51,230 bases of DNA, taken from contig NZ_MVBK01000042.1 of assembly GCF_002000365.1 (NCBI RefSeq), positions 1 to 51,230 of the forward strand. Reading direction: 5' to 3'. Shown piece after piece: positions 9,452-41,161 of this stretch; the first letter of the stretch is position 1, and every line of letters begins with the position of its first letter. A program made the translations under genes and the position numbers. This stretch comes from Thioalkalivibrio denitrificans. Its GTDB lineage: Bacteria > Pseudomonadota > Gammaproteobacteria > Ectothiorhodospirales > Ectothiorhodospiraceae. Under the pieces are notes generated by a model. That model made no database searches. It saw only the letters and a list, made by a program, of their open reading frames with translations, and was not told the DNA's origin.

Positions 9452-9837
9452 TGCGAATCCTGCTCGACACCCATGCCCTGCTGTGGTGGCTCACAAATGA
9501 CTCGCGATTGTCCGCGAACGCACGCGCAGCGATTGGGGGTCTGGAGAACGCCGTGCTTGTGAGCGCCGCCAGCGCATGGGAGATTGCCACCAAGCATCGC
9601 TTGGGAAAACTGGAGATTGGCGGCGAGGTGCTCCAGCGTTTTGATGAACTGATCACTGCGGACGGCTTTACGCATCTGGCGGTGAACTACCGGCAAGCCA
9701 TCCACGCCGGGGCTTATCCGGTCAACCACCGCGACCCGTTCGACCGGATACTGGCCGCCCAGGCAGAATTGGAACAGGTGCCCCTGGTGACGGCCGATCC
9801 GGCATTTCGCGATTTTTCGATTCGGTGCCTCTGGTAA
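9451..9837 (+). CDS. VapC-type PIN-domain toxin (second module)
   Basis: About 128 residues from the GTG at 9451, which overlaps the antitoxin stop. A TTG at 9439 in the same frame is the alternative. RILLDTHALLWWL holds the first PIN aspartate, and SAASAWEIATKHRLGKL is the signature of the VapC subfamily paired with Phd antitoxins. The later acidic sites are NHRDPFDRILAAQAE and VTADPAFRDF. It probably cleaves RNA when the antitoxin is degraded. The catalytic residues look intact. A REP hairpin follows 35 bases after the stop. Confidence 0.86.
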   Translation: MRILLDTHALLWWLTNDSRLSANARAAIGGLENAVLVSAASAWEIATKHRLGKLEIGGEVLQRFDELITADGFTHLAVNYRQAIHAGAYPVNHRDPFDRILAAQAELEQVPLVTADPAFRDFSIRCLW

Positions 9838-9872
9838 CAGACTGACCCGCTGGCCCGCCTCATCAAGGGGTC

Positions 9873-9924
9873 ATCAAGGGGTCAGAGTTGTTGAAGTTGG
9901 TTTCAACAACTCTGACCCCTTGAT
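9873..9924. repeat. RAYT-linked REP hairpin, copy C
   Basis: Perfect 23-bp arms (9873-9895 and 9902-9924) around the loop GTTGGT. The left flank carries an extra CATCAAGGGGT (9861-9871), a partial doubling of the arm end. It ends the accessory patch before ispH. Confidence 0.93.
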
Positions 9925-9926
9925 TT

Positions 9927-9949
9927 CGAGCGCACCCGAAAAGCAGCGT
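9927..9949 (+). repeat. 23-bp exact copy of a piece of the upstream vapC
   Basis: Bases 9927-9949 are identical to 8690-8712 inside the first vapC (CGAGCGCACCCGAAAAGCAG plus CGT). The match stops on the left at the REP hairpin. It is probably debris from a duplication or transposition event using the REP. Confidence 0.85.
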
Positions 9950-9976
9950 TATGCGGCCGGGGCTTGTCAAAGCCCC

Positions 9977-10909
9977 TCAGCGCAGCGCCTTCGGCAGCGA
10001 GAACGTAATCGTTTCCCGTTTGCCGCCGTGTTCCGTCACGGCATCCACGCCCGCTTTCTCAAGGTGCTCGATGACCTGCTGAACCAGCAGTTCAGGCGCC
10101 GAGGCGCCGGCGGAGAGGCCCACCTTGCGCTTTCCGGCCAGCCAGCGGTTATCGATCTGGTCCGCGTCGTCGATCAGATACGCCTCCACGCCGAACTTTT
10201 CCGCGATCTCCCGCAGCCGGTTGGAATTGGAACTGTTGGGTGAGCCCACCACGAGAAACAGATCGCATTCCAAGGCCAGCGTCTTCACGGCGTCCTGCCG
10301 GTTCTGGGTGGCGTAGCAGATGTCGTCGCGGCGCTGGCCCTGAATGTTCGGGAACCGGCGTTTCAGCGCCTCGAAGATACCCCTTGTATCGTCCACGGAC
10401 AGCGTGGTCTGGGTGACACAGCCCAGTGCATCGGGGTTTCGCACCTGGATGCGCTCGGCGTCCTCCACCGTCTCCACCAGGTAGATCTCGCCGCCGTGGC
10501 TGCGGTCGTACTGACCCAGGGTCCCGTCCACCTCGGGATGGCCCGCATGCCCGATCAGGATCACTTCCTCGCCCCGGCGCGCGTGACGGGCCACTTCCAG
10601 GTGGACCTTGGTCACTAGCGGGCAGGTGGCGTCGAACACCCTGAGCCCCCGGCGTTCCGCTTCCTGCACCACGCTGCGGGCCACCCCATGGGCACTGAAG
10701 ATCACCGTGGCGCCGTCCGGCACCTCGTCCAGCTCCTCCACGAAGACCGCACCCTTGGCGCGCAGGTCGTCCACCACGTAGCGGTTGTGCACCACCTCAT
10801 GTCGCACGTAGATGGGGCTTCCGAACAACGCGAGCGCCCGCTCGACGATGTCGATGGCGCGGTCCACGCCGGCGCAGAAGCCGCGTGGATTGGCGAGAAT
10901 GACTTGCAT
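9977..10909 (-). CDS. ispH: 4-hydroxy-3-methylbut-2-enyl diphosphate reductase
   Basis: 310 residues, full length. IspH (LytB) makes IPP and DMAPP in the last step of the MEP pathway using a 4Fe-4S cluster. The three cluster cysteines are visible in [12 protein letters not shown] (Cys12), [11 protein letters not shown] (about 96) and [10 protein letters not shown] (about 197). The catalytic Glu lies in the [10 protein letters not shown] region and the substrate-binding SPNSSNSNR and SAGASAPE motifs are also present. It is last in the conserved minus-strand run ribF-ileS-lspA-fkpB-ispH. A REP hairpin separates it from fkpB. Confidence 0.97.
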
Positions 10910-26706: not shown

Positions 26707-28128
26707 ATGGCCGCCAAGAAATACAGCGCTGGCGTGAAGGAATACCGGCATACGTACTGGATGCCCGAGTATGTCCCGCTCGATACCGACATTCTGGCCT
26801 GCTTCAAGATCACGCCCCAGCCCGGCGTGGACCGCGAGGAGGCTGCCGCCGCCGTGGCCGCCGAATCCTCCACCGGCACCTGGACCACGGTGTGGACCGA
26901 CCTGCTCACCGACCTGGACTACTACAAGGGCCGCGCCTACCGCATCGAGGACGTGCCCGGTGACGACGAGTCCTTCTACGCCTTCATCGCCTATCCCATC
27001 GACCTGTTCGAGGAAGGCTCCATGGTGAACGTGTTCACCTCCCTGGTGGGCAACGTGTTCGGCTTCAAGGCCGTGCGCATGCTGCGCCTGGAGGACGTGC
27101 GCTTCCCCATCGCCTACGTGAAGACCTGCGGCGGTCCGCCGCTGGGCATCCAGGTCGAGCGCGACGTGATGAACAAGTACGGCCGTCCCCTGCTGGGCTG
27201 CACCATCAAGCCCAAGCTCGGCCTGTCCGCCAAGAACTACGGCCGCGCGGTGTACGAGTGTCTGCGCGGCGGTCTGGACTTCACCAAGGACGACGAGAAC
27301 GTCAACTCCCAGCCGTTCATGCGCTGGCGCCAGCGTTTCGACTTCGTCATGGAGGCCATCCACAAGGCCGAGGCGGAGACCGGCGAGCGCAAGGGTCACT
27401 ACCTGAACGTGACCGCGCCCACCCCGGAAGAGATGTACAAGCGTGCCGAATACGCCAAGGAGATCGGCGCGCCGATCATCATGCACGACTACATCACCGG
27501 CGGCTTCTGCGCCAACACGGGTCTGGCCAACTGGTGCCGTGACAACGGCATGCTGCTGCACATCCACCGCGCCATGCACGCCGTGATCGACCGTCATCCC
27601 AAGCACGGTATCCACTTCCGCGTGCTGGCCAAGATCCTGCGCCTGTCCGGCGGCGACCACCTGCACACCGGCACCGTGGTGGGCAAGCTGGAAGGCGACC
27701 GCGCCGCGACCCTGGGCTGGATCGACCTGCTGCGTGAACAGTTCATCCCGGAAGACCGCAGCCGCGGCATCTTCTTCGACCAGGACTGGGGTTCCATGCC
27801 CGGCGTGTTCGCCGTCGCCTCCGGCGGTATCCATGTGTGGCACATGCCCGCCCTGGTCACCATCTTCGGCGACGACTCCGTGCTGCAGTTCGGCGGCGGC
27901 ACCCTGGGCCATCCCTGGGGCAACGCGGCCGGCGCCCACGCCAACCGTGTCGCCCTGGAGGCCTGCGTGCAGGCCCGCAACGAAGGCCGCGAAGTGGAGC
28001 GCGAAGGCAAGGAGATCCTCACCGCCGCCGCCGCGCACAGCCCCGAACTCAAGATCGCCATGGACACCTGGAAAGAGATCAAGTTCGAGTTCGAGACCAC
28101 CGACAAGCTGGACGTTGCGCACAAGTAA
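26707..28128 (+). CDS. cbbL: RuBisCO large subunit, form IA (carboxysomal)
   Basis: 473 residues. Fixes CO2 onto RuBP. Catalytic Lys168 in TIKPKLGLS, carbamylated Lys194 with Asp196 and Glu197 in [11 protein letters not shown], His in HIHRAMHAV near 287, and the loop-6 lysine in [10 protein letters not shown] near 327 are all present. The form IA identity rests on overall wording ([27 protein letters not shown]-type end) and the carboxysome context. AAGGAG (26695-26700) precedes the ATG; the longer upstream frame is discarded. First gene of the operon, divergent from cbbR. A hairpin lies in the gap to cbbS. Confidence 0.98.
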
Positions 28129-28195: not shown

Positions 28196-28528
28196 ATGTC
28201 CGACATTCAGAGCTACAAGCAGACGCCCAAGTTCGAAACCTTCTCCTACCTGCCGGAGATGAATGCCGACCAGGTGCGTCGCCAGATCGCCTACTGCATC
28301 GCCCAGGGCTGGAACCCGGCGGTGGAGCACAGCGAGAAGGAGAACGCCTTCGGCCACTACTGGTACATGTGGAAGCTGCCCATGTTCGGCGAGCAGTCCG
28401 TGGATACCGTGCTGGCCGAGATCGAGGCCTGCCACCGCGAATACCCGAACCAGATGGTGCGCTTCGTGGCCTATGACAACTATGCCCAGAGCCAGGGTAT
28501 GGCCTTCGTGGTGTATCGCGGTCGTTGA
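28196..28528 (+). CDS. cbbS: RuBisCO small subunit, form IA
   Basis: 110 residues: [49 protein letters not shown], and [20 protein letters not shown] near the end, all typical of carboxysomal CbbS. It caps the L8 core and forms part of the surface that CsoS2's N-terminal repeats bind. AAAGGGAT lies upstream of the ATG. It is followed by a strong hairpin before csoS2. Confidence 0.97.
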
Positions 28529-28608: not shown

Positions 28609-31560
28609 ATGAGTGATTCGACAGCCGGCTCCAGCCGGGGCCGCGAAATCGCGCTGGAGCGCCGCAAGGCCATGTCGCAGGGCGGCAAGGCCGGCGTGAA
28701 CCCGCAGGCGGCCGCTCGCAGCGGCAGCCGCACGGCGTCGCGTGGCGCGACTTCCAGGTCCGCCCCGGCGCAGTCGACGGCCAGGACCCCCGCGGTGGCC
28801 TCGTCCTCAAGACCGAGGCAGACGGCTGCTCCGGCGCCTGCCGCCGCCCGCTCGCCCGACTCCGGGACCAATCCCGGGCCGTCCAGAGGACGCCAGGCGT
28901 CGCTGGCGCGGCGTCAGGCCATGACCCGCAACGGCAAGGCCGGGCTTGGCATGGTGCGTGGCGGTTCCGGCAAGGCCTCGACACTGGAGGCGTTGGCGGC
29001 GTCCATGGACGTGGACTGTTCCGAGATGAGCGGGCGGGAGATCTGCCGGCTGCGTCGCCAGGCCCTGTCCCAGGGCGGCAAGCAGGCCCTCAACGTCCAG
29101 CCTTCCCCGGTGCGCCGGGCACCCTCGGAGCAGCGGCCCGAGGCCCCCGTGGACAACGTGCCCCGCGCGTCGGAGACGGGTGAGATGAAGAAGGAGGGCT
29201 GCGGTTGCGGGTGCAAGGGCAAGAAGCGGGAGGAGGCACAGCCCACGGTGGAGGAGGCTGCCGTGGAGGCGGGTCTCGACGCCGTGTGCGAGGCGGCCGA
29301 GTCCGCTGACGACGCCGAATCCCCGGGTCCGATGATGTCCTCCGTGCGCGCCCTGTGCATGGCGCGCCGCCAGGCGCTCGCCGGGCGCGGCAAGAAGGCC
29401 CTGCGCCAGCCGCTCACGGGCGGCGGCCTGTCCCAGGGCACGCTGCCCCGGCAGCGTTCCTGGAAGGGTGCGCAGAAGCAGGGGTTGTCGGGGCGCGAGA
29501 TCGCCCGGCAACGTCGCGAGGAGCTGTGTGCCATCGGGCGTGGTACAGACGAGAAGGGGCGTCCTTGCGGACGCATGCGCCCCCAGACCGGGCCGGTGAA
29601 GGTGGAGGAAGGCACCACCCTGGCCGGCCAGCGCGTCTCCGGCACCCAAGTGGACCGTTCCGCGCGGGTGACGGGTATCGAGTCCGGCAGCTGCCGGACC
29701 ATCACGGGCACCGAGTACACGGGTGCCGAGCAGTACGAGCGTTTCTGCCGGACGCGGCCGGAGGCCAATGCGCCGAAAGTGAGCGTCACCCACACCCTGC
29801 GCGGTCAGGGCGTGACCGGCACGGAGGTGGGCCGTTCGGTGAGAGTCACCGGCGACGAGTACGGCAGCTGCAAGCCCGTGACCGGCACCGAGTACATCGG
29901 TGCGGAGCAATACGCGGAATTCTGCGCCACGGGCCCGCAGCCGGGCCCGCGCAAGACCAGCGCCATGCCGACCCGCGGTGGCGAGTCGGTGTCCGGCACC
30001 GCCGTGGGCAGGAGCGTCAGGGTGACCGGCGACGAGGCCGGCTCCGGTCGCCCGATCACGGGTACGGACTATGTCAGCGAAGCCGCCAGCGAGGTGCCCG
30101 GCATGGGAAAGTCTGAAAGCGGCCCCCTGAAGGTGGGGGTCATGCACACCCTGCGCGGGCGTGAACTGACCGGCACGGAAGTGGGCCGCTCCGTGAAGGT
30201 GACCGGTGACGAACCCGGCAGCTGCAAGTCGGTCACCGGTACCGAGTACATCGGCGCCGAGCAGTACGTCTCCGGGTGCGGCACGCGTCCGGCGCCCGGC
30301 CCCGAGAAGGTGTCGCGGTTGAGCACGCCCCAGGGGCTTGCGGTGACCGGCACGGCGGTGGGCCGCAGCGAGCGCGTCACGGGTGACGAGCCCGGCTCCT
30401 GCGCACGCCTGACCGGCACGCCCTATTACAACCAGGACGATTTCGCAGCGGCCTGTGAGGCACCCGCCGCCGGCGGCGTGCCCAAGGTGGGCGTGATGCA
30501 CACGCTCAAGGGGCGCGAGGTGTCCGGTACCGTGGTGGGCGGGTCCTTCAGGGTGACCGGTGACGAGTACGGCGGCTGCAAGCCCATCACCGGTACCGAG
30601 TACGTGGGTTCCGAGCACTACGACGCCTTCTGCGCCAGCCGCCCCGATCCCTCGCCCGAGAAGGTGACCGTGGGTCGGACCTGGAACCAGCAGGCGGTCT
30701 CCGGCAGCGCCGTGGGCCGCAGCGCCAGGGTGACCGGCGACGAGTACGGCGCATGCAAGCCTGTCACCGGCACCGCGTATATCGGTCCTGACCAGTACCA
30801 GGACTTCTGCGAGGCGCCCGATACGGGGGCGGCCCAGGAACGGGTGGCGCAGCGCCATTCCACGCCGGGCATGCCGGTCACGGGCAGCCAGCCGGGCTAC
30901 GACCCGCAGGTGACGGGCACCGAGCGCGGCGCCTGCCAGCCGGTCTCCGGTGCCCCCTACGTGGGCGCTGACGACTTCGCGCAGACCTGCCACATGGGCG
31001 GTGCGGCGGACCTGCATCCGCGCCTGCGTCCGGAAGGGCAGCCGGCACAGGCGGCGCCGCAGGGTTTCGAGCCTGCGCCCAACAGCCGGTTCAGCGTCGT
31101 GTCTCCGGCCCGTGAGGCCTGGGAGCGGCGCGACCGCCGGGTGACGGGAACCGCCTACGGCGCCAACGGCACGGTCACCGGCCCCATCAACAAGGCTGCG
31201 GGCCTGATCTCGGGCACTCCCGAGTTCCGTTACAGCGAAGGCGCCGCGGCCCCAGGTCAGGCCGTGCCCGCCCAGCCCGAGGCACCGCCTGCCGCCAGCC
31301 GGATCACCGGCAACGGCAGCGAAAGCGGCGTGACCATCACCGGTGATCACTGGGCCCGGGGCAGCAGCGTGACGGGGACCGAGGGTTTCTCGGTGCGCCG
31401 TAACGCCACCCAGCGCGGCGAGCCACGCGGCGAGGGCCGCAGTGCCGTGACGTATCGCGGCATGGAACGGCCCGAGGTGCCCGAGAGCAGGATCACCGGC
31501 AGTTCCGGGAACACCAGCAAGGGTTCCCTGGTGACGCTCTCCGGGGGTGCGCGTGGCTAG
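28609..31560 (+). CDS. csoS2: Carboxysome scaffold protein CsoS2
   Basis: 983 residues, a long, mostly disordered scaffold that links RuBisCO to the shell. The N region (to about 310) has basic helical repeats: GREIALERRKAMSQGGKAG (11-29), RQASLARRQAMTRNGKAG (about 95-112), GREICRLRRQALSQGGK (about 144-160), a VRALCMARRQALAGRGKKAL repeat near 245-262 and GREIARQRREEL near 295; four such repeats bind RuBisCO in known CsoS2. A CGCGC cluster lies near 198. From about 340 to 800 come seven to eight M repeats of roughly 58 residues with three (V/I)(T/S)G motifs, two cysteines and a conserved Tyr. The C region ends in the conserved ITGSSGNTSKGSLVTLSGG peptide that anchors to the shell. Third in sequence, the M repeat starting near residue 463 lacks both cysteines. 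ATG with AGGAAGG upstream. Confidence 0.96.
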   Translation: MSDSTAGSSRGREIALERRKAMSQGGKAGVNPQAAARSGSRTASRGATSRSAPAQSTARTPAVASSSRPRQTAAPAPAAARSPDSGTNPGPSRGRQASLARRQAMTRNGKAGLGMVRGGSGKASTLEALAASMDVDCSEMSGREICRLRRQALSQGGKQALNVQPSPVRRAPSEQRPEAPVDNVPRASETGEMKKEGCGCGCKGKKREEAQPTVEEAAVEAGLDAVCEAAESADDAESPGPMMSSVRALCMARRQALAGRGKKALRQPLTGGGLSQGTLPRQRSWKGAQKQGLSGREIARQRREELCAIGRGTDEKGRPCGRMRPQTGPVKVEEGTTLAGQRVSGTQVDRSARVTGIESGSCRTITGTEYTGAEQYERFCRTRPEANAPKVSVTHTLRGQGVTGTEVGRSVRVTGDEYGSCKPVTGTEYIGAEQYAEFCATGPQPGPRKTSAMPTRGGESVSGTAVGRSVRVTGDEAGSGRPITGTDYVSEAASEVPGMGKSESGPLKVGVMHTLRGRELTGTEVGRSVKVTGDEPGSCKSVTGTEYIGAEQYVSGCGTRPAPGPEKVSRLSTPQGLAVTGTAVGRSERVTGDEPGSCARLTGTPYYNQDDFAAACEAPAAGGVPKVGVMHTLKGREVSGTVVGGSFRVTGDEYGGCKPITGTEYVGSEHYDAFCASRPDPSPEKVTVGRTWNQQAVSGSAVGRSARVTGDEYGACKPVTGTAYIGPDQYQDFCEAPDTGAAQERVAQRHSTPGMPVTGSQPGYDPQVTGTERGACQPVSGAPYVGADDFAQTCHMGGAADLHPRLRPEGQPAQAAPQGFEPAPNSRFSVVSPAREAWERRDRRVTGTAYGANGTVTGPINKAAGLISGTPEFRYSEGAAAPGQAVPAQPEAPPAASRITGNGSESGVTITGDHWARGSSVTGTEGFSVRRNATQRGEPRGEGRSAVTYRGMERPEVPESRITGSSGNTSKGSLVTLSGGARG

Positions 31561-31592: not shown

Positions 31593-33146
31593 ATGCTGCG
31601 ACATCGTGACAAGACCCCCCTGGGGAGCCGCTACAAGGCACCCAGGGAGATGGGCGTCGGACGGCCCGAGGAGGACGACAGGGAACAGCAGGCGCAGGTG
31701 GAAGGCGAGTCCGCCCCTGCATCGGCGGCGTCCAGCGCCCAGGCGCCTTTCCTGCCGGGTCATCCCCTGGCGGACCAGGACGCCAACACGGCGTTGTACG
31801 AATACGAGCGGGGGTTCCGGGAGCGATTCGCGCGTCTGGTGCCGGTGCTCAAGGAGGTGCACTCGCTGCAGCACGAACCGGATTTCGAGCTGCGTGCACA
31901 GAAGATCACGCAAGAGGCGCTGGGTTACCGGCTGCCGGAAGAAGTTGTGGCGGATGCCTGGATCAACGGTCTGGACACCCGCGCGCTGTACCTGCACGGC
32001 ATGTTCGAGATGTTCGACCAGGTGGTCAACGAACACTGGCGGGGCCGCGACGACCTGATCGCCGATGCGCAACGGGCCGTCGCCTACTTCCTGGACTGCG
32101 ATTTCCATGAAGTGGACATCACGCCCTGTTCGGATGGACGCCTGCTGGGCCTGCGACGTTTCATTCTGCGTCTGCCCGCCCTGGCCGTGCGTGTGAAGAG
32201 TTATGCCGGTGCGCTGTTCGACATCGAGAGCGACGTGCAGCACTGGACGAGGCGCGAGCTGATCCGCTTCAGGGAGGGTGTGCCGACGACGCCGGACGTG
32301 CCGAGCCGCTACCTGAAGATTGCTGTGTACCACTTCAGCAGCTCGGCGCCGAATGAACAGGGATGCGCGGCCCATGGCTGCAACGAACGCGACGCGGCCG
32401 AGGCGGCGCTCCTGCAGCTCAGGGCGTTCCGCCAGGCGATCGAGAACACGTACTGCTGCGGCGCGTCGGTGGATACATTGCTGATCGGCGTGGACACGGA
32501 CACGGACGCCATCAAGGTGCACGTGCCCGATGCGGATACGCGCATGAGCCTGTACCGCTTCGTGGACTGCGGCGAGCTGTACCGCGAGACGCGCGAGCTG
32601 GATGCCCAGACGGCGTCGCTGCGGGTGTACGAGGCGATACAGGAGGCGATCCACACCCAGGGCTGGGGCAAGGGCAACGGTGCGCCGCACGAAGGGATGC
32701 TGCGACTCGTGACGAGACTGCTGCTGAACAACATCTCGCAGCTCGATTACGTGGCGCGCTACCACGGTGGACGCTACGCCGACGTGGAGCATCAGGAGCG
32801 GGTGATCATCGTGGGTGATCACATCTCCGAGATGCAGGTACGCAACTTCGCGTACTTCACGCAGATGCAGACCATGGAGGAGGACGGCAAGAACATGGAC
32901 GTGGCGGTGCGCAAGATATTCGGCTCGCTGAACATCTCGCACGGTCTGCCCATACCGGTGGTGGTGCATTACCGCTACAACCGGAACGTCCCGGGAGCCC
33001 GGGATCGCGCAGAGGCCCATGCGCGGCGGGTGAAGGCGGCGATCATGGATCGCTACCGGGAGCTGGCCGAAAAGGGTCTGATCGGATGTCACATGGTGAT
33101 CCGTGACAAGCAGAGTGGCAGCCAGCTCGAACTGCTGGAAGGTTGA
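31593..33146 (+). CDS. csoSCA: Carboxysomal carbonic anhydrase CsoSCA (epsilon subclass of beta-CA)
   Basis: 517 residues. Turns bicarbonate into CO2 inside the carboxysome. Zinc ligands by comparison with the Halothiobacillus enzyme: Cys179 in ITPCSDGR (with the Asp and Arg of the catalytic dyad right after), His247 in VYHFSSS and Cys258 in EQGCAAHGC. Spacing (68 and 11 residues) agrees with the known protein. The first 55 or so residues are disordered and basic, the part known to bind RuBisCO in Halothiobacillus. An in-frame stop immediately precedes the ATG at 31593, so the start cannot lie upstream. The ribosome site is weak, fitting the low copy number. Confidence 0.95.
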   Translation: MLRHRDKTPLGSRYKAPREMGVGRPEEDDREQQAQVEGESAPASAASSAQAPFLPGHPLADQDANTALYEYERGFRERFARLVPVLKEVHSLQHEPDFELRAQKITQEALGYRLPEEVVADAWINGLDTRALYLHGMFEMFDQVVNEHWRGRDDLIADAQRAVAYFLDCDFHEVDITPCSDGRLLGLRRFILRLPALAVRVKSYAGALFDIESDVQHWTRRELIRFREGVPTTPDVPSRYLKIAVYHFSSSAPNEQGCAAHGCNERDAAEAALLQLRAFRQAIENTYCCGASVDTLLIGVDTDTDAIKVHVPDADTRMSLYRFVDCGELYRETRELDAQTASLRVYEAIQEAIHTQGWGKGNGAPHEGMLRLVTRLLLNNISQLDYVARYHGGRYADVEHQERVIIVGDHISEMQVRNFAYFTQMQTMEEDGKNMDVAVRKIFGSLNISHGLPIPVVVHYRYNRNVPGARDRAEAHARRVKAAIMDRYRELAEKGLIGCHMVIRDKQSGSQLELLEG

Positions 33147-33170: not shown

Positions 33171-33422
33171 ATGAAGATCTGCAAGGTTGAAAAGACGCTG
33201 GTGTCGACGAACAGGATCAGGGACCTGGGCCATCGTCCGCTGCTGGTGGTGCGCGAAAAGGGCAGCGGCCCGCCCACGGTGGCCGTGGACGCGGTGGGTT
33301 GCGTGCCGGGCGACTGGGTGATCGTGGTGGGCAGCTCGGCCGCGCGTGAAGCCGCCGGCAGCAAGGAGTACCCGAGTGACGCCACCATCGTCGGCATCAT
33401 CGACTACTGGGAGGAGGAGTAA
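33171..33422 (+). CDS. csoS4A: Carboxysome vertex protein CsoS4A
   Basis: 83 residues of the EutN/CcmL (BMC-P) fold: MKICKVEKTLVSTNRI, PLLVVREKG, AVDAVGCVPGDWVIVVGSSAAREAAG, and ATIVGIIDYWEEE. Pentamers close the twelve corners of the shell. It lies 24 bases after csoSCA and 3 bases before csoS4B. Confidence 0.95.
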   Translation: MKICKVEKTLVSTNRIRDLGHRPLLVVREKGSGPPTVAVDAVGCVPGDWVIVVGSSAAREAAGSKEYPSDATIVGIIDYWEEE

Positions 33423-33425
33423 CCG

Positions 33426-33758
33426 GTGGAGATCATGCGCGTGGTCGACGAGCTGGTCTGCACCCGGCGCGTGCCGGGGCTGTACACCGCCTCGCTGCGC
33501 GTGCTCGCGGACCACAAGGGCAGGCTCAACGTCGCGGTGGATCCGGTGGGCGCACACCCGGGCAACTGGGTGTTCACCGTGAGCGGCTCGGCGGCGCGCT
33601 ACGCGACAGGTGATTTTCGCATCGCCACCGATCTCACCATCGGCGGCATCATCGATCACTGGGACGGTGATGACGGCAGTAAACAGGCCACCGGAAGGGA
33701 ATCGGGTGGTGAAGGCAACGAAGCAAGCGGCTCGGCCACCTCCAGAAACGTGGCGTGA
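33426..33758 (+). CDS. csoS4B: Carboxysome vertex protein CsoS4B, with C-terminal extension
   Basis: 110 residues from the GTG at 33426 (an ATG at 33435 is the alternative). The BMC-P core is MRVVDELVCTRRVPGL, AVDPVGAHPGNWVFTVSGSAARYATG and LTIGGIIDHWD, ending near residue 79. The last 31 residues (rich in Gly, Ser, Asp, Glu) go beyond the usual fold and look disordered. Forms pentameric vertices with or instead of CsoS4A. Confidence 0.93.
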   Translation: MEIMRVVDELVCTRRVPGLYTASLRVLADHKGRLNVAVDPVGAHPGNWVFTVSGSAARYATGDFRIATDLTIGGIIDHWDGDDGSKQATGRESGGEGNEASGSATSRNVA

Positions 33759-33799: not shown

Positions 33800-34099
33800 A
33801 TGGCAAGTGAACGTTTTGGAGTGGCCCTTGGGATGATCGAGACCCGCGGTCTGGTGCCGGCGATTGAAGCAGCCGATGCCATGACCAAGGCCTCCGAGGT
33901 GCGTCTGATCGGGCGCCAGTTCGTGGGCGGCGGCTACGTGACCGTGCTGGTGCGCGGCGAGACGGGTGCGGTGAACGCGGCCGTGCGTGCCGGCGCTGAC
34001 GCCTGCGAGCGCGTGGGTGATGGCCTGGTGGCTGCGCACATCATTGCCCGCGTGCATTCCGAGGTGGAAAGCATCCTGCCCGAGCGCGTGGAAAAGTAA
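33800..34099 (+). CDS. csoS1C: Major carboxysome shell protein, BMC domain (CsoS1C position)
   Basis: 99 residues, a single BMC domain: GVALGMIETRGLVPAIEAADAMTKAS, RLIGRQFVGGGYVTVLVRGETGAV and ADACERVGDGLVAAHIIARVHSEVE. Hexamers tile the shell facets and their pores pass small anions. AGGAGAAGAGAG precedes the ATG. First of three near-identical tandem copies. A 101-base block (33830-33930) is identical to csoS1B but not to the gene in between. Confidence 0.96.
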   Translation: MASERFGVALGMIETRGLVPAIEAADAMTKASEVRLIGRQFVGGGYVTVLVRGETGAVNAAVRAGADACERVGDGLVAAHIIARVHSEVESILPERVEK

Positions 34100-34129
34100 G
34101 TCAACAAACCTTGACTAGGAGTTAAGACA

Positions 34130-34423
34130 ATGGCGAATGAACGATTTGGTGTGGCCCTCGGCATGATCGAGACCCGTGGTCTGGTTCCCGCGATCGAAGC
34201 GGCGGATGCCATGACCAAGGCCTCCGAAGTGCGGCTGATTGGTCGTCAGTTCGTGGGCGGTGGTTACGTCACCGTGCTGGTGCGCGGTGAGACGGGCGCG
34301 GTGAACGCGGCCGTGCGTGCCGGCGCTGATGCCTGCGAGCGCGTGGGTGACGGCCTGGTGGCCGCGCACATCATTGCCCGCGTGCATTCCGAGGTGGAAG
34401 CGATCCTGCCCGAGAAGCCGTAA
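34130..34423 (+). CDS. csoS1A: Major carboxysome shell protein, BMC domain (CsoS1A position)
   Basis: 97 residues. Residues 4-90 are identical in protein to the preceding copy (ERFGVALGMIETRG... HSEVE), though many codons differ. The tail is the short AILPEKP. Hexameric facet protein. CTAGGAGTT upstream is the ribosome site. A hairpin (34424-34457) begins right after the stop. Confidence 0.96.
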   Translation: MANERFGVALGMIETRGLVPAIEAADAMTKASEVRLIGRQFVGGGYVTVLVRGETGAVNAAVRAGADACERVGDGLVAAHIIARVHSEVEAILPEKP

Positions 34424-34457
34424 GCGGCAATCGCGGTATGGAACCCGTAATTGCCGC
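34424..34457 (+). promoter_or_regulatory. Hairpin between csoS1A and csoS1B
   Basis: GCGGCAAT (34424-34431) pairs with ATTGCCGC (34450-34457). No T tract follows. May tune the ratio of shell proteins (inference). Confidence 0.55.
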
Positions 34458-34503
34458 CGCGGTAACAAGCCCGGCGGCAGGGGTCTGAAGCAAGGAGACT
34501 GAG

Positions 34504-34848
34504 ATGGCTAACGAAGTGACCGGTGTGGCCCTCGGGATGATCGAGACCCGCGGTCTGGTGCCGGCGATTGAAGCAGCCGATGCCATGACCAAGGCCTCCG
34601 AGGTGCGTCTGATCGGGCGCCAGTTCGTGGGCGGTGGTTACGTGACCGTGCTGGTGCGCGGCGAGACGGGCGCGGTGAACGCGGCCGTGCGTGCCGGTGC
34701 CGATGCCTGCGAGCGCGTGGGTGACGGCCTGGTGGCCGCGCACATCATTGCCCGCGTACATACCGAGGTGGAGGGCATTCTGCCCACGAGCCCCAGCGAC
34801 AGCGGCGCCTGTGACGGCCGTGACGGCGCGGTAGTGCCGGCCAGCTAA
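34504..34848 (+). CDS. csoS1B: Carboxysome shell protein, BMC domain with extended tail (CsoS1B position)
   Basis: 114 residues. The BMC core is the same as in the two preceding copies except the first six residues and the end of the domain (HTEVEGILP). The extra tail TSPSDSGACDGRDGAVVPAS is typical of CsoS1B, which is about 12 residues longer than CsoS1A/C. CAAGGAGACTGAG supplies the ribosome site. Minor facet protein. Confidence 0.95.
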   Translation: MANEVTGVALGMIETRGLVPAIEAADAMTKASEVRLIGRQFVGGGYVTVLVRGETGAVNAAVRAGADACERVGDGLVAAHIIARVHTEVEGILPTSPSDSGACDGRDGAVVPAS

Positions 34849-35617: not shown

Positions 35618-36256
35618 ATGTCGTCGAAGGTGGTTGCGGTCATCAATCAGAAGGGTGGCACGGGCAAGACCACCCTGACCATGAACCTGGCCGCCGGGCT
35701 TGCGCGCCGCGCGCGTTCCCTGGTGGTGGACGCCGACCCGCAGGGCTCCGCCGGGCACTGGGTGCGCATGGCGGACGATCGCCGCCCCTTTCCCGCCTCG
35801 GTGATCTCGGTGGCCGGGCCCCTGGACCGCGAGGTGGGGCGCATCCGGCGCGACTACGACTACGTGGTGGTGGATTGCCCCCCCACCATGGACAGGGCCT
35901 CCGCCGGGGCCGCCATGTCGGTGGCCGACGTGGTGCTCATCCCCGTGCTGCCGTCACCGGTGGATCTGTGGGGCAGCGTGCGCATGTCGCGCGGGCTGGA
36001 GGACGCCCGCGATGAGAACCCCGGGCTGCGGGCGTTCATCGTGGTCAACCAGCTGGAGGTGCGCAACGCGCTGTCCCGGGCCATGCGCCACGCGCTGACG
36101 GAGATCGACATTCCGGCGCTGGACAGCAGCCTGCGGCGCCGGGCGGCGTATCGGCGCGCCGCGCTCGAAGGCTGCTCGGTCTATGACCTGGGCAAGCCCG
36201 GCGAGGCGGCGGCCGCCGAAGTGGAATCCATCATTGAAGAGGTGTTCGAGTCATGA
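35618..36256 (+). CDS. mcdA: ParA-type ATPase McdA, carboxysome positioning
   Basis: 212 residues from the ATG at 35618 (GGGGAG five bases upstream). Deviant Walker A NQKGGTGKTTL with the signature lysine, followed by VVDADPQGSAGHW, and Walker B YVVVDCPPTMD. ParA ATPases bind DNA as ATP dimers. In the McdAB system, gradients on the nucleoid keep carboxysomes apart so that both daughter cells inherit them. It overlaps the next small gene by four bases, which pairs them. Confidence 0.92.
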   Translation: MSSKVVAVINQKGGTGKTTLTMNLAAGLARRARSLVVDADPQGSAGHWVRMADDRRPFPASVISVAGPLDREVGRIRRDYDYVVVDCPPTMDRASAGAAMSVADVVLIPVLPSPVDLWGSVRMSRGLEDARDENPGLRAFIVVNQLEVRNALSRAMRHALTEIDIPALDSSLRRRAAYRRAALEGCSVYDLGKPGEAAAAEVESIIEEVFES

Positions 36257-36480
36257 GCGACATCCAGAGCAAGCTGGCCGCCGGCGTACGCGAGGCGAGG
36301 AAGCAGCAGGACGAACCCAAGGCGGGCAAGGCCGAGGCGGCCAAGTCCAGGCCGGCTCCCAAGACGCCCGCCCCGGCCAAGGCGCCGGCACCCGCTGCGG
36401 ACGACGCCAACCAGGTGCCGCCCAACACCGGCGATGACCCGTGGGCGGATCTGCATCCGCGGCGCGTCTGGCCCGACTGA
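36253..36480 (+). CDS. mcdB: McdB-like carboxysome adaptor
   Basis: 75 residues, almost wholly low-complexity: Lys/Ala/Pro-rich middle (KSRPAPKTPAPAKAPAPAA), and a conserved-looking C terminus DDPWADLHPRRVWPD with two tryptophans. Alpha-carboxysome McdB proteins are small and disordered with a C-terminal invariant Trp. McdB binds shell and stimulates McdA. The four-base overlap with mcdA supports this. Homology is inferred from composition, tail and position, not from a search. Confidence 0.85.
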   Translation: MSDIQSKLAAGVREARKQQDEPKAGKAEAAKSRPAPKTPAPAKAPAPAADDANQVPPNTGDDPWADLHPRRVWPD

Positions 36481-36555: not shown

Positions 36556-37359
36556 ATGAACGATGAGCTGCGCGACTACCTGATCCACGAGGAGCCGTAT
36601 TACCGGCCCGTCGGCGACGAGGTGGAACTCTACGAGGCCGCCTACTCGGTGCGTATGCCCATGATGCTCAAGGGCCCCACCGGCTGCGGCAAGACCCGAT
36701 TCGTGGAGTACATGGCCTGGCGTCTGGGCAAGCCGCTGATCACCGTGGCCTGCAACGAGGACATGACCGCATCCGACCTGGTGGGGCGTTTCCTGCTGGA
36801 TGCCGAGGGGACCCGCTGGCAGGACGGCCCTCTCGCGCTGGCCGCCCGCTTCGGGGCCATCTGCTATCTGGACGAGGTGGTCGAGGCGCGCCAGGACACC
36901 ACGGTGGTGATCCATCCGCTGACCGACAATCGCCGCGTGCTGCCCCTGGAGCGCAAGGGTGAGCTGGTGCATGCCCACGAAGACTTCCAGGTAGTGATCT
37001 CCTACAACCCGGGCTACCAGAGCCTGATGAAGGACCTCAAGCAGTCCACCAAGCAGCGTTTCGGGGCGCTGGACTTCAACTACCCGGCCCATGACCTGGA
37101 AACCGAGATTGTCTCTCACGAGACCGGGGTGAGCGCCGACATCGCCGGCAAGCTGGTGAGCGTGGCCGAGCGTGCCCGCAACCTCAAGGGTCACGGTCTG
37201 GACGAGGGCATCTCCACGCGCATGCTGGTGTACGCCGGTTCGTTGATCCACAAGGGTGTCGCGCCGCTGGCCGCCTGCCGCATGGCCCTGGTGCGTCCCA
37301 TCACGGACGACCCCGACATGCGCGACGCCCTGGACGCCGCGGTCACGACGTTCTTCTGA
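36556..37359 (+). CDS. cbbQ: RuBisCO activase motor CbbQ (MoxR AAA+)
   Basis: 267 residues. Walker A GPTGCGKT at 40-47, Walker B AICYLDEV at 101-108, sensor region [11 protein letters not shown] near 150, and an arginine-finger area [14 protein letters not shown]. CbbQ hexamers with CbbO remove inhibitory sugar phosphates from RuBisCO using ATP. GGGAGAG is eight bases before the ATG. The typical end is reached with VTTFF. Confidence 0.95.
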
Positions 37360-37397: not shown

Positions 37398-39719
37398 ATG
37401 AGCATCCATCTCGAAGATTACCGCGAGCTTCTCGAGGATCTCGGGCCCCATGCGGCCGAGGTCATGGAGGCCTCATGGCAGGAAGCGGCGCGCGCCTTCA
37501 GCAGTCACGGGCTGAAGGCCTATTACCTGGAAGGCGCCCAGGCCCTGCACTCCCTGAGCCGCGGCAGTGAACTGGTGGTGGCCTTCATCCAGGAGGCGCC
37601 GGACGTTGCCCGCGAACTGGGCGAGGACGCCGTGCAGGATCTCCTGAGCGCGGCCATCAGGCTCTACTCCAAGACCAGTGTCGCGGTGATCACCCTGCTG
37701 GTCTCCACCGCCCCGGTGGCGGCCCGGCGCTTGGGCGATCGCTCGCTGTTCAACGGCTACCTGCGGTTGCTGGACAACCTGCTCAGCCAGGTGCCCAGGG
37801 GCGTGCGCCCCATGCTCGAGCGTCTGGACGAACTGCTTACCCACCTGACCCTGGGCGGCCTGCGTCGCTGGGCCATGTGGGGCGCGCAGGCCCATCGCAC
37901 GGACCCTGAGGCCCAGGTGGCCTACTTCGGCCTGCAGTCCCCGGAGTCGCTGTCGGTGTTCCAGAAGGAACGTCGCGGCACCCTGTTCGTGGACGTGCAG
38001 CGGCGCATCAACATCTACCTGCGCGCCCTGTGGGCACGGGACTTCTTCATGCGTCCCACCAGTGGTGACTTCGAGTCCCGTGAGGGCTACCGGCCCTACA
38101 TCGAGGGCTACACCCTCTACCTGCCCGATGCCTACGACGACATGGACGGACTCACGGGCCTGGACCTCTATCGTGCTGCCGCCGCCCATGCCGCGGCGCA
38201 CATGGTGTACACACGGGAGATGCTCCCGGAGGCGGAGCCCAGGGGCGTGGCCGGCGCGCTGGTGGGCCTGTTCGAGGACGCCCGCGTCGAGACCCTGGCG
38301 GTGCGCGCGTTTCCCGGCCTGCGCCAGATCTGGCTGCCCCTGCACCGCGCCACGCCCGATGACGGAGACGAGCCGGCGGTGCTGCTGGCGCGTACCGCCC
38401 GCGCCCTGCTGGATCCCGACTACCGCGATGACCACCCGTTCGTGACCCGTGCGCTGGAGGCCTTCGAGGCCCGCGCCGACAACCTGGAGCAGCCGCTGCT
38501 GGCATGGGAGCTGGGTCAGGAACTGGCGTCCACCTTCCCCCTGCTCGGCAGCTTCAACCCGGCCCAGGATCAGGCGGACATCGTCTACCGGGACGACAAT
38601 CGCTACATCTGGGACTTCGGGCGAGAGGACGAATCGGGCGAGGTGGTGCGCCTGGGCGAGACACGTCATCAGCGCCGCCACGTGAGCCTGATGGAGATGA
38701 TCAATGAACTGGACGTGCCCGGCGCGGGCGACGACGCCGAGGAGATCTGGGTGCTCTCCACCGAGTTCTTCCGCGACTCGGAGGAGACCAGTCTCAATGA
38801 GCAGGAGGGCAAGCCGCCCATCTCCCTGCCGTTTCATTACCACGAGTGGGACTACCAGATGCAGCTGGAGCGACCGCACTGGTGCACCCTGCTGGAACGC
38901 CGCCCGCCCGCCGGCGACCTGTCTCTCATCGAGGACCTTGCCGACAAGCACCGCCCCCTGATTGCGCGGCTCAAGTACCTGATCGAGGCCATGCAGCCCC
39001 AGGGGCTCATTCGCATGCGCAAGCAGCCGGACGGCGACGAACTGGACGTCAACGCCCTGGTTCACGCCATGGTGGATCTGCGCCTGGGCGAGCAGCCGGA
39101 CCCGCGCGTGTTCATCCGCAACATCCGCAAGGTGCGCGATCTGTCTGTACTGCTGCTCATCGACCTTTCCGAATCCACCAACGAAACGGTGGGCGGGAGC
39201 GAGACGCGCGTGCTGGACCTGGCGCGCGAGTCCACCGCGTTGCTGGCCGGGGCGCTGTCGAAGATCGGCGATCCGTTCGCCATCCACGGGTTCGACTCGG
39301 ACGGTCGCCACGACGTGGAGTATTTCCGCTTCAAGGATTTCGACGCGCCCTACGACGACAAGGTCAAGGCGCGGCTGGCGGGCATGACCGGGCAGATGTC
39401 CACGCGCATGGGCACGGCCATCCGCCACGCCGGAGAGATCCTCAAACGCCAGCCCACCCACAAGAAGCTCCTGCTGCTGCTCACCGACGGCGAGCCGGCG
39501 GACACCGACGTGCGCGATCCCCAGTACCTGCGCTTAGACGCCAAGCGCGCGGTCGAGGAGGTGGCCAGGCATGGGGTGTTCACGTTCTGCATCAGCCTGG
39601 ACCCCCATGCCGACGAATACGTGGAGCGCATCTTCGGCGCCCGCAACTTTGCCGTCATCGACAACGTCGAGCGGCTGCCGGACCGTCTGCCCATGCTGTA
39701 TGCGGGCCTGACACGATAG
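37398..39719 (+). CDS. cbbO: RuBisCO activase adaptor CbbO (VWA domain)
   Basis: 773 residues. A large helical N-terminal region (SIHLEDYRELLEDLG start, TPR-like) and a C-terminal von Willebrand A domain with the MIDAS motif DLSES at 589-593 (VLLLIDLSESTNE), TRMGTAIRHAG and LLTDGEPAD. The VWA domain contacts RuBisCO and the N region docks on the CbbQ ring. The pair is a standard activase. It starts 38 bases after cbbQ and ends 64 bases before the terminal gene of the operon. Confidence 0.95.
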   Translation: MSIHLEDYRELLEDLGPHAAEVMEASWQEAARAFSSHGLKAYYLEGAQALHSLSRGSELVVAFIQEAPDVARELGEDAVQDLLSAAIRLYSKTSVAVITLLVSTAPVAARRLGDRSLFNGYLRLLDNLLSQVPRGVRPMLERLDELLTHLTLGGLRRWAMWGAQAHRTDPEAQVAYFGLQSPESLSVFQKERRGTLFVDVQRRINIYLRALWARDFFMRPTSGDFESREGYRPYIEGYTLYLPDAYDDMDGLTGLDLYRAAAAHAAAHMVYTREMLPEAEPRGVAGALVGLFEDARVETLAVRAFPGLRQIWLPLHRATPDDGDEPAVLLARTARALLDPDYRDDHPFVTRALEAFEARADNLEQPLLAWELGQELASTFPLLGSFNPAQDQADIVYRDDNRYIWDFGREDESGEVVRLGETRHQRRHVSLMEMINELDVPGAGDDAEEIWVLSTEFFRDSEETSLNEQEGKPPISLPFHYHEWDYQMQLERPHWCTLLERRPPAGDLSLIEDLADKHRPLIARLKYLIEAMQPQGLIRMRKQPDGDELDVNALVHAMVDLRLGEQPDPRVFIRNIRKVRDLSVLLLIDLSESTNETVGGSETRVLDLARESTALLAGALSKIGDPFAIHGFDSDGRHDVEYFRFKDFDAPYDDKVKARLAGMTGQMSTRMGTAIRHAGEILKRQPTHKKLLLLLTDGEPADTDVRDPQYLRLDAKRAVEEVARHGVFTFCISLDPHADEYVERIFGARNFAVIDNVERLPDRLPMLYAGLTR

Positions 39720-39783
39720 CTTTCCAGGTCCGCTATCCCTTGCGAAACATGCAGGTTGGCGGAGAGACATCACGGAGCACACT

Positions 39784-40359
39784 ATGGTGACCAAGGGTTC
39801 TTCCACGAGCCGGCCCCGGATCAGCGGGACCCGCTTCATCGACGCGGACGCCGTGCGCGGCAGCCGACTGAGCATGAGCGCGTCGTTTCGCGGCCATGCG
39901 CATCCGGTCACCGGCACTTTTCGCGGCGTCGAAGCCGAGGGGATCGACACGCCCCCGGATGAGGCCTGCGTCGTCTGTGCCCCCACGACCCAGCGTCTCG
40001 CGGAGGACCTGTTCGACCGCTGGAACGATGCGCTCAAGAGCGGGGATCCGGACCGCGTGACCGCCTGTTACGCCGAGGACGCCGTGCTGTTGCCCACGGT
40101 ATCCAACATCCCGCGCACCAGCCATGCCGAGATCCGCGACTACTTCGTGCATTTCCTGGAGAAAAAGCCCCGGGGCACCATCAACCAGCGCAACGTCAAG
40201 TTCGGCTGCAACAAGATCACCGATGCGGGCATCTACACCTTCCGCGTCGAGGACAACGGCCAGATCCTGGAGGTGCCCGCCCGCTATACCTTCGTCTACG
40301 AGAATCGTGACGGGGAGTGGCTGATCGTGCACCACCACTCGTCGAAGATGCCGGACTGA
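39784..40359 (+). CDS. Putative iota-class carbonic anhydrase (CaMKII-association/SnoaL fold) with CsoS2-like N-terminal extension
   Basis: 191 residues. From about 70 onward it is a CaMKII-association (SnoaL-like) domain: RLAEDLFDRWNDALKSGD, RVTACYAEDAVLLPTVSN (Thr105), HAEIRDYFVHFLEKKP (Tyr120), VPARYTFVYEN, GEWLIVHHHSSKMPD. The HHHSS motif at 183-187 near the C terminus, with LLPT and RYTF, is the mark of iota-class carbonic anhydrases, which can work without metal. There is no signal peptide, so it should be cytosolic, unlike many bacterial members. The first 69 residues are extra and disordered. They hold ISG (13-15), VTG (42-44) and two cysteines (62, 65), like pieces of a CsoS2 repeat. 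It closes the carboxysome operon 64 bases after cbbO (GGAG site). Enzyme class is a motif-based inference; the shell-targeting idea is more tentative. Confidence 0.72.
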   Translation: MVTKGSSTSRPRISGTRFIDADAVRGSRLSMSASFRGHAHPVTGTFRGVEAEGIDTPPDEACVVCAPTTQRLAEDLFDRWNDALKSGDPDRVTACYAEDAVLLPTVSNIPRTSHAEIRDYFVHFLEKKPRGTINQRNVKFGCNKITDAGIYTFRVEDNGQILEVPARYTFVYENRDGEWLIVHHHSSKMPD

Positions 40360-40455
40360 GTCTTGATGTGGGAATTGGGAATTTGGAAGCAAGCAGTGGG
40401 AAGGGGAAAGAGGGGCGAACACCTTGATTCGAGAGAAACGACACGCCGGCTGTCC

Positions 40456-41161
<706 letters not shown>

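Follow-up and report, generated by a model that had tools for sequence, protein, structure and literature searches.

An iota-class carbonic anhydrase homologue encoded beside CsoSCA in Thioalkalivibrio denitrificans: a candidate carboxysome-targeted and probably zinc-sparing partner enzyme

Why does a single alpha-carboxysome locus encode two unrelated carbonic anhydrases (CAs)? The question is raised by a stretch of 51,230 nucleotides from Thioalkalivibrio denitrificans (contig NZ_MVBK01000042.1), which is referred to here as the window. An open reading frame for a 191-residue iota-class CA homologue (iCA; 39784–40359, forward strand, ATG at 39784 and stop codon at 40357–40359) stands there in the same cluster as the gene for CsoSCA, the zinc beta-type carboxysomal CA. 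An earlier note on this DNA had called the product an iota-CA encoded by the last gene of an alpha-carboxysome operon, and had suggested that a metal-independent CA could serve at alkaline pH or under zinc shortage, or could recapture CO2 outside the shell.

The iCA gene is preceded by cbbL (Rubisco large subunit; 26707–28128), cbbS (Rubisco small subunit; 28196–28528), csoS2 (scaffold; 28609–31560, with 30 [VI][TS]G tripeptides in frame), csoSCA (31593–33146), csoS4A and csoS4B (pentamer shell proteins, conserved in relatives; 33171–33758), three csoS1 hexamer genes (33800–34848), a ferritin-like gene, acRAF, parA, a 75-aa ORF, cbbQ (AAA ATPase; 36556–37359) and cbbO (VWA-domain protein; 37398–39719), in this order and on the forward strand for all genes whose coordinates are given in this sentence. 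Family searches within the window covered cbbL, csoS2, csoSCA, one csoS1, the ferritin-like gene, parA, cbbQ and cbbO. The other names in the cso locus, including cbbS, csoS4A and csoS4B, follow the gene order and common usage; cbbQ and cbbO are likewise customary names, the best NCBIfam match of the former being GvpN, below the cut-off. Of the three csoS1 genes, the NCBIfam search covered the third, and each of the three products has a histidine at position 80, which we take to be the equivalent of CsoS1A His79. The 75-aa ORF between parA and cbbQ (36253–36480) had no Pfam match and recurs at 26–57% identity in several Thioalkalivibrio-type loci.

The reading frame is as it had been described, with LLPT, RYTF and VHHHSSKMP all present, and the gap of 64 bases after cbbO is correct, cbbO ending at 39719 and iCA starting at 39784. 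Relatives of iCA are encoded at 53 loci found by searching genome contigs, and the iCA of the closest genomes is 80% identical across residues 2–190; iCA is thus a conserved gene and not a chance frame. A consensus scan of 39400–40700 found no terminator-like site and a single promoter-like site at 40456–40485, 3' of the iCA gene. The last place in the operon agrees with the gene order in the window but does not extend to distant carriers, which can have iCA away from the cso locus. Likewise, iCA follows cbbO directly in the window's own genus, whereas a LysR gene lies between the two in the other Thioalkalivibrio-type loci checked.

The catalytic domain of CaMKII_AD/NTF2-like type (residues 67–191; 39982–40356, forward strand) matched PF08332 CaMKII_AD with E=1e-22, as the earlier note had anticipated, and also SnoaL_3 (5.4e-14) and NCBIfam SgcJ/EcaC (9.3e-18). 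AlphaFold2 modelled most of the domain with pLDDT >90, with values of at least 90 at 112 of the 191 residues. A sequence search returned 3h51 as the nearest solved structure (E=1.5e-37), and in the structure search the iCA model matched it with Z 22.0 and rmsd 1.1 over 124 residues at 53% identity; in available excerpts, a 2021 review counts 3h51 among the iota-CAs. Among 38 sequences, Y120, H185, S186 and S187 are invariant and T105 and H184 nearly so, and these residues of the T105/Y120/HHSS set were paired with T106, Y124, S199 and H197 in review numbering by motif order, not by superposition. The metal-free iota-CAs 7c5v (Z 16.3) and 7c5x (Z 16.2), which lay outside the best 50 Foldseek matches listed and were scored in a second structure search, tied with other NTF2-like folds, so that the class assignment rests on the sequence signature and close homology. 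With the PF08332 match, the HHSS tail, the conservation of the residues named earlier and the identity to 3h51 taken together, iCA very probably belongs to the iota class, as had been claimed.

CsoSCA of the window scored 607 bits against a cut-off of 241. Its alignment with the Halothiobacillus neapolitanus enzyme showed C179-x-D181-x-R183, H247 and C258 to be kept, which are presumably the zinc ligands and the Asp/Arg pair. Because CsoSCA is intact beside iCA, one locus encodes two unrelated CAs, and the idea that both go with one carboxysome was borne out in many relatives as well. A degenerate CsoSCA compensated by iCA was ruled out by the presence of the active-site residues. Within the window's family, 18 of 47 genomes encode a full-length iCA and one (G011) the domain only, and CsoSCA was above the cut-off in 37/47, comprising all 18 genomes with the extended iCA described below and 19 of the 29 others; hence 19 of the 37 CsoSCA genomes lack an extended iCA. 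In the Thiomicrospira family, the extended iCA was found in 22/58 genomes, 14 with and 8 without CsoSCA, all eight of the latter belonging to genus g56, and 20 of the 34 CsoSCA genomes lack it. As a separate observation in the window's family, CsoSCA of iCA carriers scored 607–623 bits on TIGR02701 and other full-length CsoSCA 639–664, with G002, G008 and G009, CsoSCA genomes without iCA, as exceptions at 607–623; judged from these scores, the family perhaps holds two CsoSCA types. One genome, G381 (= G048; contigs C7 and C206), has two csoS2 copies and two csoSCA matches, one of the latter cut by a contig end.

What distinguishes iCA from many of its relatives is an N-terminal extension (residues 1–66; 39784–39981, forward strand), on which the earlier note had made no remark. 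It is conserved within the extension clade described below, missing from the other homologues and predicted to be disordered, with AlphaFold2 pLDDT <50 at residues 1–21 and 23–57. It carries two motifs of the type [VI][TS]GT on the forward strand, ISGT at residues 13–16 (39820–39831) and VTGT at residues 42–45 (39907–39918), the second 29 residues after the first. Searching the 47 family genomes with a profile of the extension alone recovered the same 18 genomes (E<=5.1e-29; next best E=0.008). The extension-less loci L038–L073 align from residue 54–76 onward, or later in the truncated L066 and L072, and some extension-less relatives (L038–L040 and L019) have, by eye, a signal-peptide-like N-terminus. 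No signal peptide was seen by eye in iCA of the window, in keeping with the earlier note, and a periplasmic role was ruled out on this ground.

A tree of the domain (126 columns, with 14 of 61 inner branches open) placed all 22 extension sequences on one side of a branch with support 100/99, the sole other row inside the extension clade being the tandem paralogue of G040. Most simply, the extension had a single origin, with one later exchange. G040, one of the 18 carriers, holds this second iCA copy without the extension, and because the tree puts the paralogue inside the extension clade, the extension was apparently swapped for an export signal in G040. The tandem copy (L122:13817–14200; also L008 and L020) directly follows the carboxysomal copy and has a signal-peptide-like N-terminus by eye. 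A different duplication was seen in G108, a Thiomicrospira genome with two diverged extension iota-CA genes (L111:7840–8379 and 9776–10324) in a single carboxysome island, one of them without the second [VI][TS]G. Between the two lie a Ham1-like gene (by eye) and a further ORF; G429, G446 and G466 likewise have two iota-CA genes.

The extension follows carboxysome genomes. Among 369 Gammaproteobacteria, the iCA profile matched 36, of which 11 matches reach into the extension, and CsoS2 was found in 74; we took both counts to cover the same 369 genomes from the equal counts and handles. Of the 11 extension genomes, 10 have CsoS2, as do 64 of the 358 others (Fisher p=5.8e-7, kinship ignored); among the domain-only genomes it is present in 1/25, namely G171, which has a weak match (E=2.2e-4). 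The one extension genome of this class sample without CsoS2 is G113, which is 84% complete. In a second count, 10 of 13 extension carriers had CsoS2, the missing ones being G113, G050 (L037) and G051 (L066, a truncated copy). We regard it as highly likely that iCA is located in the carboxysome. That the extension goes with carboxysome genomes and has tripeptides of the shell-binding type known from CsoS2 speaks against a recapture of CO2 outside the shell, one of the roles suggested in the earlier note.

How could the extension direct iCA to the carboxysome? According to the available part of a published study, mutants showed that CsoS2 binds CsoS1 and the shell through its (V/I)(T/S)G motifs, and cargo has been encapsulated with the CsoS2 C-terminal domain as the encapsulation peptide (PMC11365436). 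The pattern [VI][TS]G[TS]xx[IL] occurs in all 36 distinct extension sequences, partly by selection because the retrieving profiles include this first motif, and a second [VI][TS]G follows 27–29 residues further on in 30/36 and is absent in 6/36. These 36 sequences differ from one another within the last 150 aa, several of them being close kin, and they include 14 of the 22 Thiomicrospira-family extension genomes as well as G108, G419 and G242; the truncated copy L066 was excluded.

The hhalign comparison of the extension with CsoS2, which aligned it to a stretch of the CsoS2 middle region, gave a score of 21.7 at a probability of 4.8%. None of 400 column shuffles reached this score (maximum 20.4), and it fell to 9.2 with the reversed alignment and to 9.5 with both motifs masked. 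Against the single proteins of the window, CsoS2, which is also the longest, came top at 16.3, followed by 11.2 for the next. Sliding windows of 38 columns along the full alignment scored 15.6–21.6 when starting at columns 0–42 and 8.6–13.5 when starting at column 48 or later. Neither hmmsearch nor the profile search of the 47 genomes gave a significant E-value between the extension and CsoS2; true homology was thus not detected by these searches, leaving likeness at the level of the motifs. At the sequence level, the likeness rests on the two tripeptides and is a shared motif, not proven homology. Judged from these sequence features, iCA would somewhat more probably than not dock through its extension, and attachment by the two [VI][TS]G motifs themselves we rate as evenly balanced. 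The open-access literature searched, as far as its texts were accessible, yielded nothing on the extension of a carboxysomal iota-CA.

Another way into the carboxysome would lead through Rubisco, with the extension binding it as the CsoSCA N-terminus and the N-repeats of CsoS2 do, and the [VI][TS]G tripeptides being incidental. In the accessible parts of the literature, a cryo-EM study found no ordered shell peptide for CsoSCA, and other work describes recruitment through Rubisco; because CsoSCA is recruited in this manner, the extension might bind Rubisco instead. The recruitment of CsoSCA and of the CsoS2 N-terminal domain by Rubisco via disordered peptides, as these excerpts have it, is in line with such a role, as are several arginines in the extension, one of them invariant across 13 aligned sequences. 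However, no R-RR-GK type repeat was seen by eye in the extension, and hhalign prefers CsoS2 with a score that depends on both [VI][TS]G motifs. We therefore consider Rubisco binding unlikely and favour docking to the shell. Apart from iCA, the ORFs of the ferritin-like proteins at L111:14623–15165 and L112:14229–14783 begin ~30 residues before the position where such proteins usually start (SVMAGVGQxTRREL...), and these extra residues are perhaps another targeting peptide.

Next to its location, the possible benefit of a second CA has to be explained. On the stretches examined, nine extension copies (L034–L037 and L114–L118) are without any cso gene, and four of them (L034–L037) show signs of zinc control, either zinc-starvation-type neighbours or Zur-like boxes, the latter scored out of 18 against a Zur consensus. 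The genes after iCA in L034 encode COG0523, CysRS, ThrRS and an amidohydrolase, the CysRS being the second copy in its genome and 47% identical to the other. Amidohydrolase and HisI genes precede iCA in L037. L035 has the end of ZnuA, a C-terminal piece of CobW and a DksA with two cysteines only, which therefore lacks the full C4 finger; its Zur-like box (15/18) is 460 bp away from iCA, with a divergent ORF closer by. The box in L036 (16/18) is ~130 bp upstream of iCA, and the other neighbours there are not of the zinc type. In simulation, 0.0 boxes of the grade of L035 and L036 were expected per locus. CsoSCA is encoded on other contigs in the genomes of L034, L035 and L036, and not in the genome of L037.

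Within 1.49 Mb of loci, boxes of at least 14/18 occur in L035 and its copies L083 and L119, which are one contig (G381 = G048), in L036, and otherwise only in L067, L069, L070 and L071. The last four are Methylocystis-type loci, where the neighbours of an extension-less iCA are COG0523, ZnuA, an ABC-3 permease and a weak FUR-family match in L067, COG0523 in L069, and GTP cyclohydrolase I (folE) in L070 and L071; iota-CAs may thus serve as zinc-sparing CAs more widely. No Zur-like box precedes iCA of the window (best 9/18 within ~480 bp upstream) or of its Thioalkalivibrio relatives (best 9–10/18), and since the window gene is without such a box, the signs of zinc control belong to some of its relatives. 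L114–L118 have no zinc-type neighbour by eye and no box of at least 14/18, and none of that grade occurs in the extension loci L111–L118 and L146–L159; boxes at 13/18 occur twice in L115 and once each in L111, L146–L148, L153 and L159.

The zinc-starvation-type genes have precedents. Among the paralogues of zinc enzymes in Zur regulons, the accessible part of a published survey lists CysRS, ThrRS, PyrC, HisI, DksA and a gamma-class CA, the DksA paralogues being without the canonical C4 finger (PMC2770081). In the part of the open-access literature to which the search extended, nothing was found on zinc regulation of a carboxysomal iota-CA. As for catalysis, excerpts of a review state that the proven metal-free iota-CAs share an insertion absent from other iota-CAs, that measurements on the iota-CA of B. 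territorii were made with zinc, and that dehydration of bicarbonate is probably beyond the metal-free iota-CAs. Metal-free catalysis in the direction of dehydration, which carboxysomes need, is thus unproven. The zinc shortage proposed in the earlier note gained support from some relatives (L034–L037 and the Methylocystis-type loci) and found no counterpart before the window gene or around the five other non-cso copies. The odds of a zinc-related role fall with these five negatives and rise with the duplicated CysRS and the DksA that has two cysteines; on balance, we give a zinc-sparing role of iCA an even chance.

The two CAs might instead be an adaptation to high pH, widening the pH or anion range of the carboxysome independently of zinc. 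A haloalkaliphilic way of life has been described for Thioalkalivibrio and for Thiomicrospira cyclica, and the excerpted review suggests an alkaline adaptation via low cofactor solubility for the Thiomicrospira enzyme. Against this stand the relatives whose iCA lies among zinc-starvation-type genes or behind Zur-like boxes, as well as the absence of iCA from 19/37 and 20/34 of the CsoSCA genomes in the window's family and the Thiomicrospira family, respectively. An adaptation to high pH appears improbable to us, and a zinc-sparing role remains our preferred explanation.

An iota-CA in a carboxysome is not new, having already appeared in print for Thiomicrospira. The primary paper on the Thiomicrospira carboxysomal iota-CA is reportedly that of Wieschollek et al. 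from 2024. In Thiomicrospira alpha-carboxysomes, an iota-CA replaces CsoSCA, according to the available passages of citing papers (PMC12628692, PMC12646314, PMC12918739, PMC13159521). What may be new is the pairing with CsoSCA, the N-terminal tail and, for some relatives, the connection with zinc shortage. In the text accessible, two papers on the genome or transcriptome of Thioalkalivibrio mention csoS3 (csoSCA) along with other CAs, and no iota-CA. G452 (83% complete), filed under genus g56, has CsoSCA and no iCA. In G167 (94% complete), CsoS2 is directly followed by CsoS4A without any CsoSCA match, and an extension iCA is encoded elsewhere on the contig carrying CsoS2 and CsoS4A. The simplest history is that both CAs coexisted first and CsoSCA was lost afterwards, probably more than once. 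That iCA is a cytosolic NTF2-like protein other than a CA, of the ketosteroid-isomerase or polyketide-cyclase type and a mere passenger of the cluster, would agree with the many NTF2-like folds scoring about like 7c5v and 7c5x and with a CA function read from homology, but it is very improbable in view of the HHSS signature and conserved pocket residues, the 53% identity to 3h51, which is treated as an iota-CA, the same-extension orthologues in Thiomicrospira, whose carboxysomal CA is described as iota-type in the passages available, and G167 with its CsoS2 and iCA genes and no CsoSCA match.

From the computed features, which are the class by homology, the pairing with CsoSCA, the extension clade, the association with CsoS2 and the zinc neighbourhood of some relatives, we infer the activity, metal use, shell docking, regulation and physiological role of iCA. 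It would work inside the alpha-carboxysome alongside the zinc enzyme CsoSCA. The disordered extension, which takes the place of the signal-peptide-like start of some relatives, probably docks iCA to the inner shell via its two [VI][TS]G motifs, copying the binding of CsoS2 to CsoS1, and the docked enzyme would convert bicarbonate to CO2 beside CsoSCA. With a catalytic domain that probably requires hardly any zinc or none, iCA could supply CO2 to Rubisco in zinc shortage. The iCA gene looks zinc-regulated in some distant relatives; in the lineage of the window it lies in the cso–cbbQO cluster and has no Zur-like box before it, and in Thiomicrospira iCA has taken the place of CsoSCA. The reading as a whole, a carboxysome-targeted and probably zinc-sparing iota-CA partner of CsoSCA that later became its Thiomicrospira replacement, is in our judgement rather more likely to be right than wrong. 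A bolder version, which we put forward tentatively and at somewhat less than even chances, is a two-enzyme, zinc-switchable carboxysome, in which a metal-independent CA, tethered to the shell by a short CsoS2-like [VI][TS]G tail, would take over from the zinc-dependent CsoSCA at low zinc. The enzyme would have started as a Zur-controlled backup and later gained a permanent place in the cso cluster of alkaliphiles, so that CsoSCA could be lost in Thiomicrospira and in one other lineage at least (G167).

This reading suggests why a carboxysome keeps two unrelated CAs, and it suggests a route to the loss of CsoSCA, namely a zinc-sparing partner already aboard. The short natural extension is a candidate cargo tag for alpha-carboxysomes. 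If the reading is true, zinc shortage would be a physiological setting for iota-CAs, one open to tests in strains that can be cultured, and engineers transferring carboxysomes to plants would have at their disposal a CA that may need no zinc loading.

Several known systems resemble parts of the proposed arrangement. The iota-CA-like protein 3h51 from Xanthomonas campestris has the HHSS tail in common with iCA, whereas its aligned region starts only at residue 68 of iCA. The metal-free iota-CAs 7c5v (Anabaena) and 7c5x/7c5y (Bigelowiella) share the fold (Z 16.0–16.3) and the HHSS tail, the latter by alignment for 7c5x and for both according to the accessible review text, but they are only 22–25% identical to iCA and, by the same text, carry an insertion absent from other iota-CAs. 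The Zur-regulated gamma-CA paralogues likewise stand for a zinc-sparing CA within COG0523/Zur clusters, although they belong to another CA class and the excerpted source mentions no carboxysome link (PMC2770081). Like the iCA extension, the middle-region and C-terminal repeats of CsoS2 hold disordered [VI][TS]G tripeptides, 30 of them as opposed to two, with no significant HMM homology between the proteins. Closest is the Thiomicrospira iota-CA, which belongs to the same clade as iCA and has the same extension (G108, taken as T. cyclica ALM1); further g56 genomes share the extension, with the gene near cso genes. The available passages of the citing papers mention neither the extension nor zinc regulation for the Thiomicrospira enzyme, and csoSCA, absent there by our searches (csoSX in print), is intact in the window.
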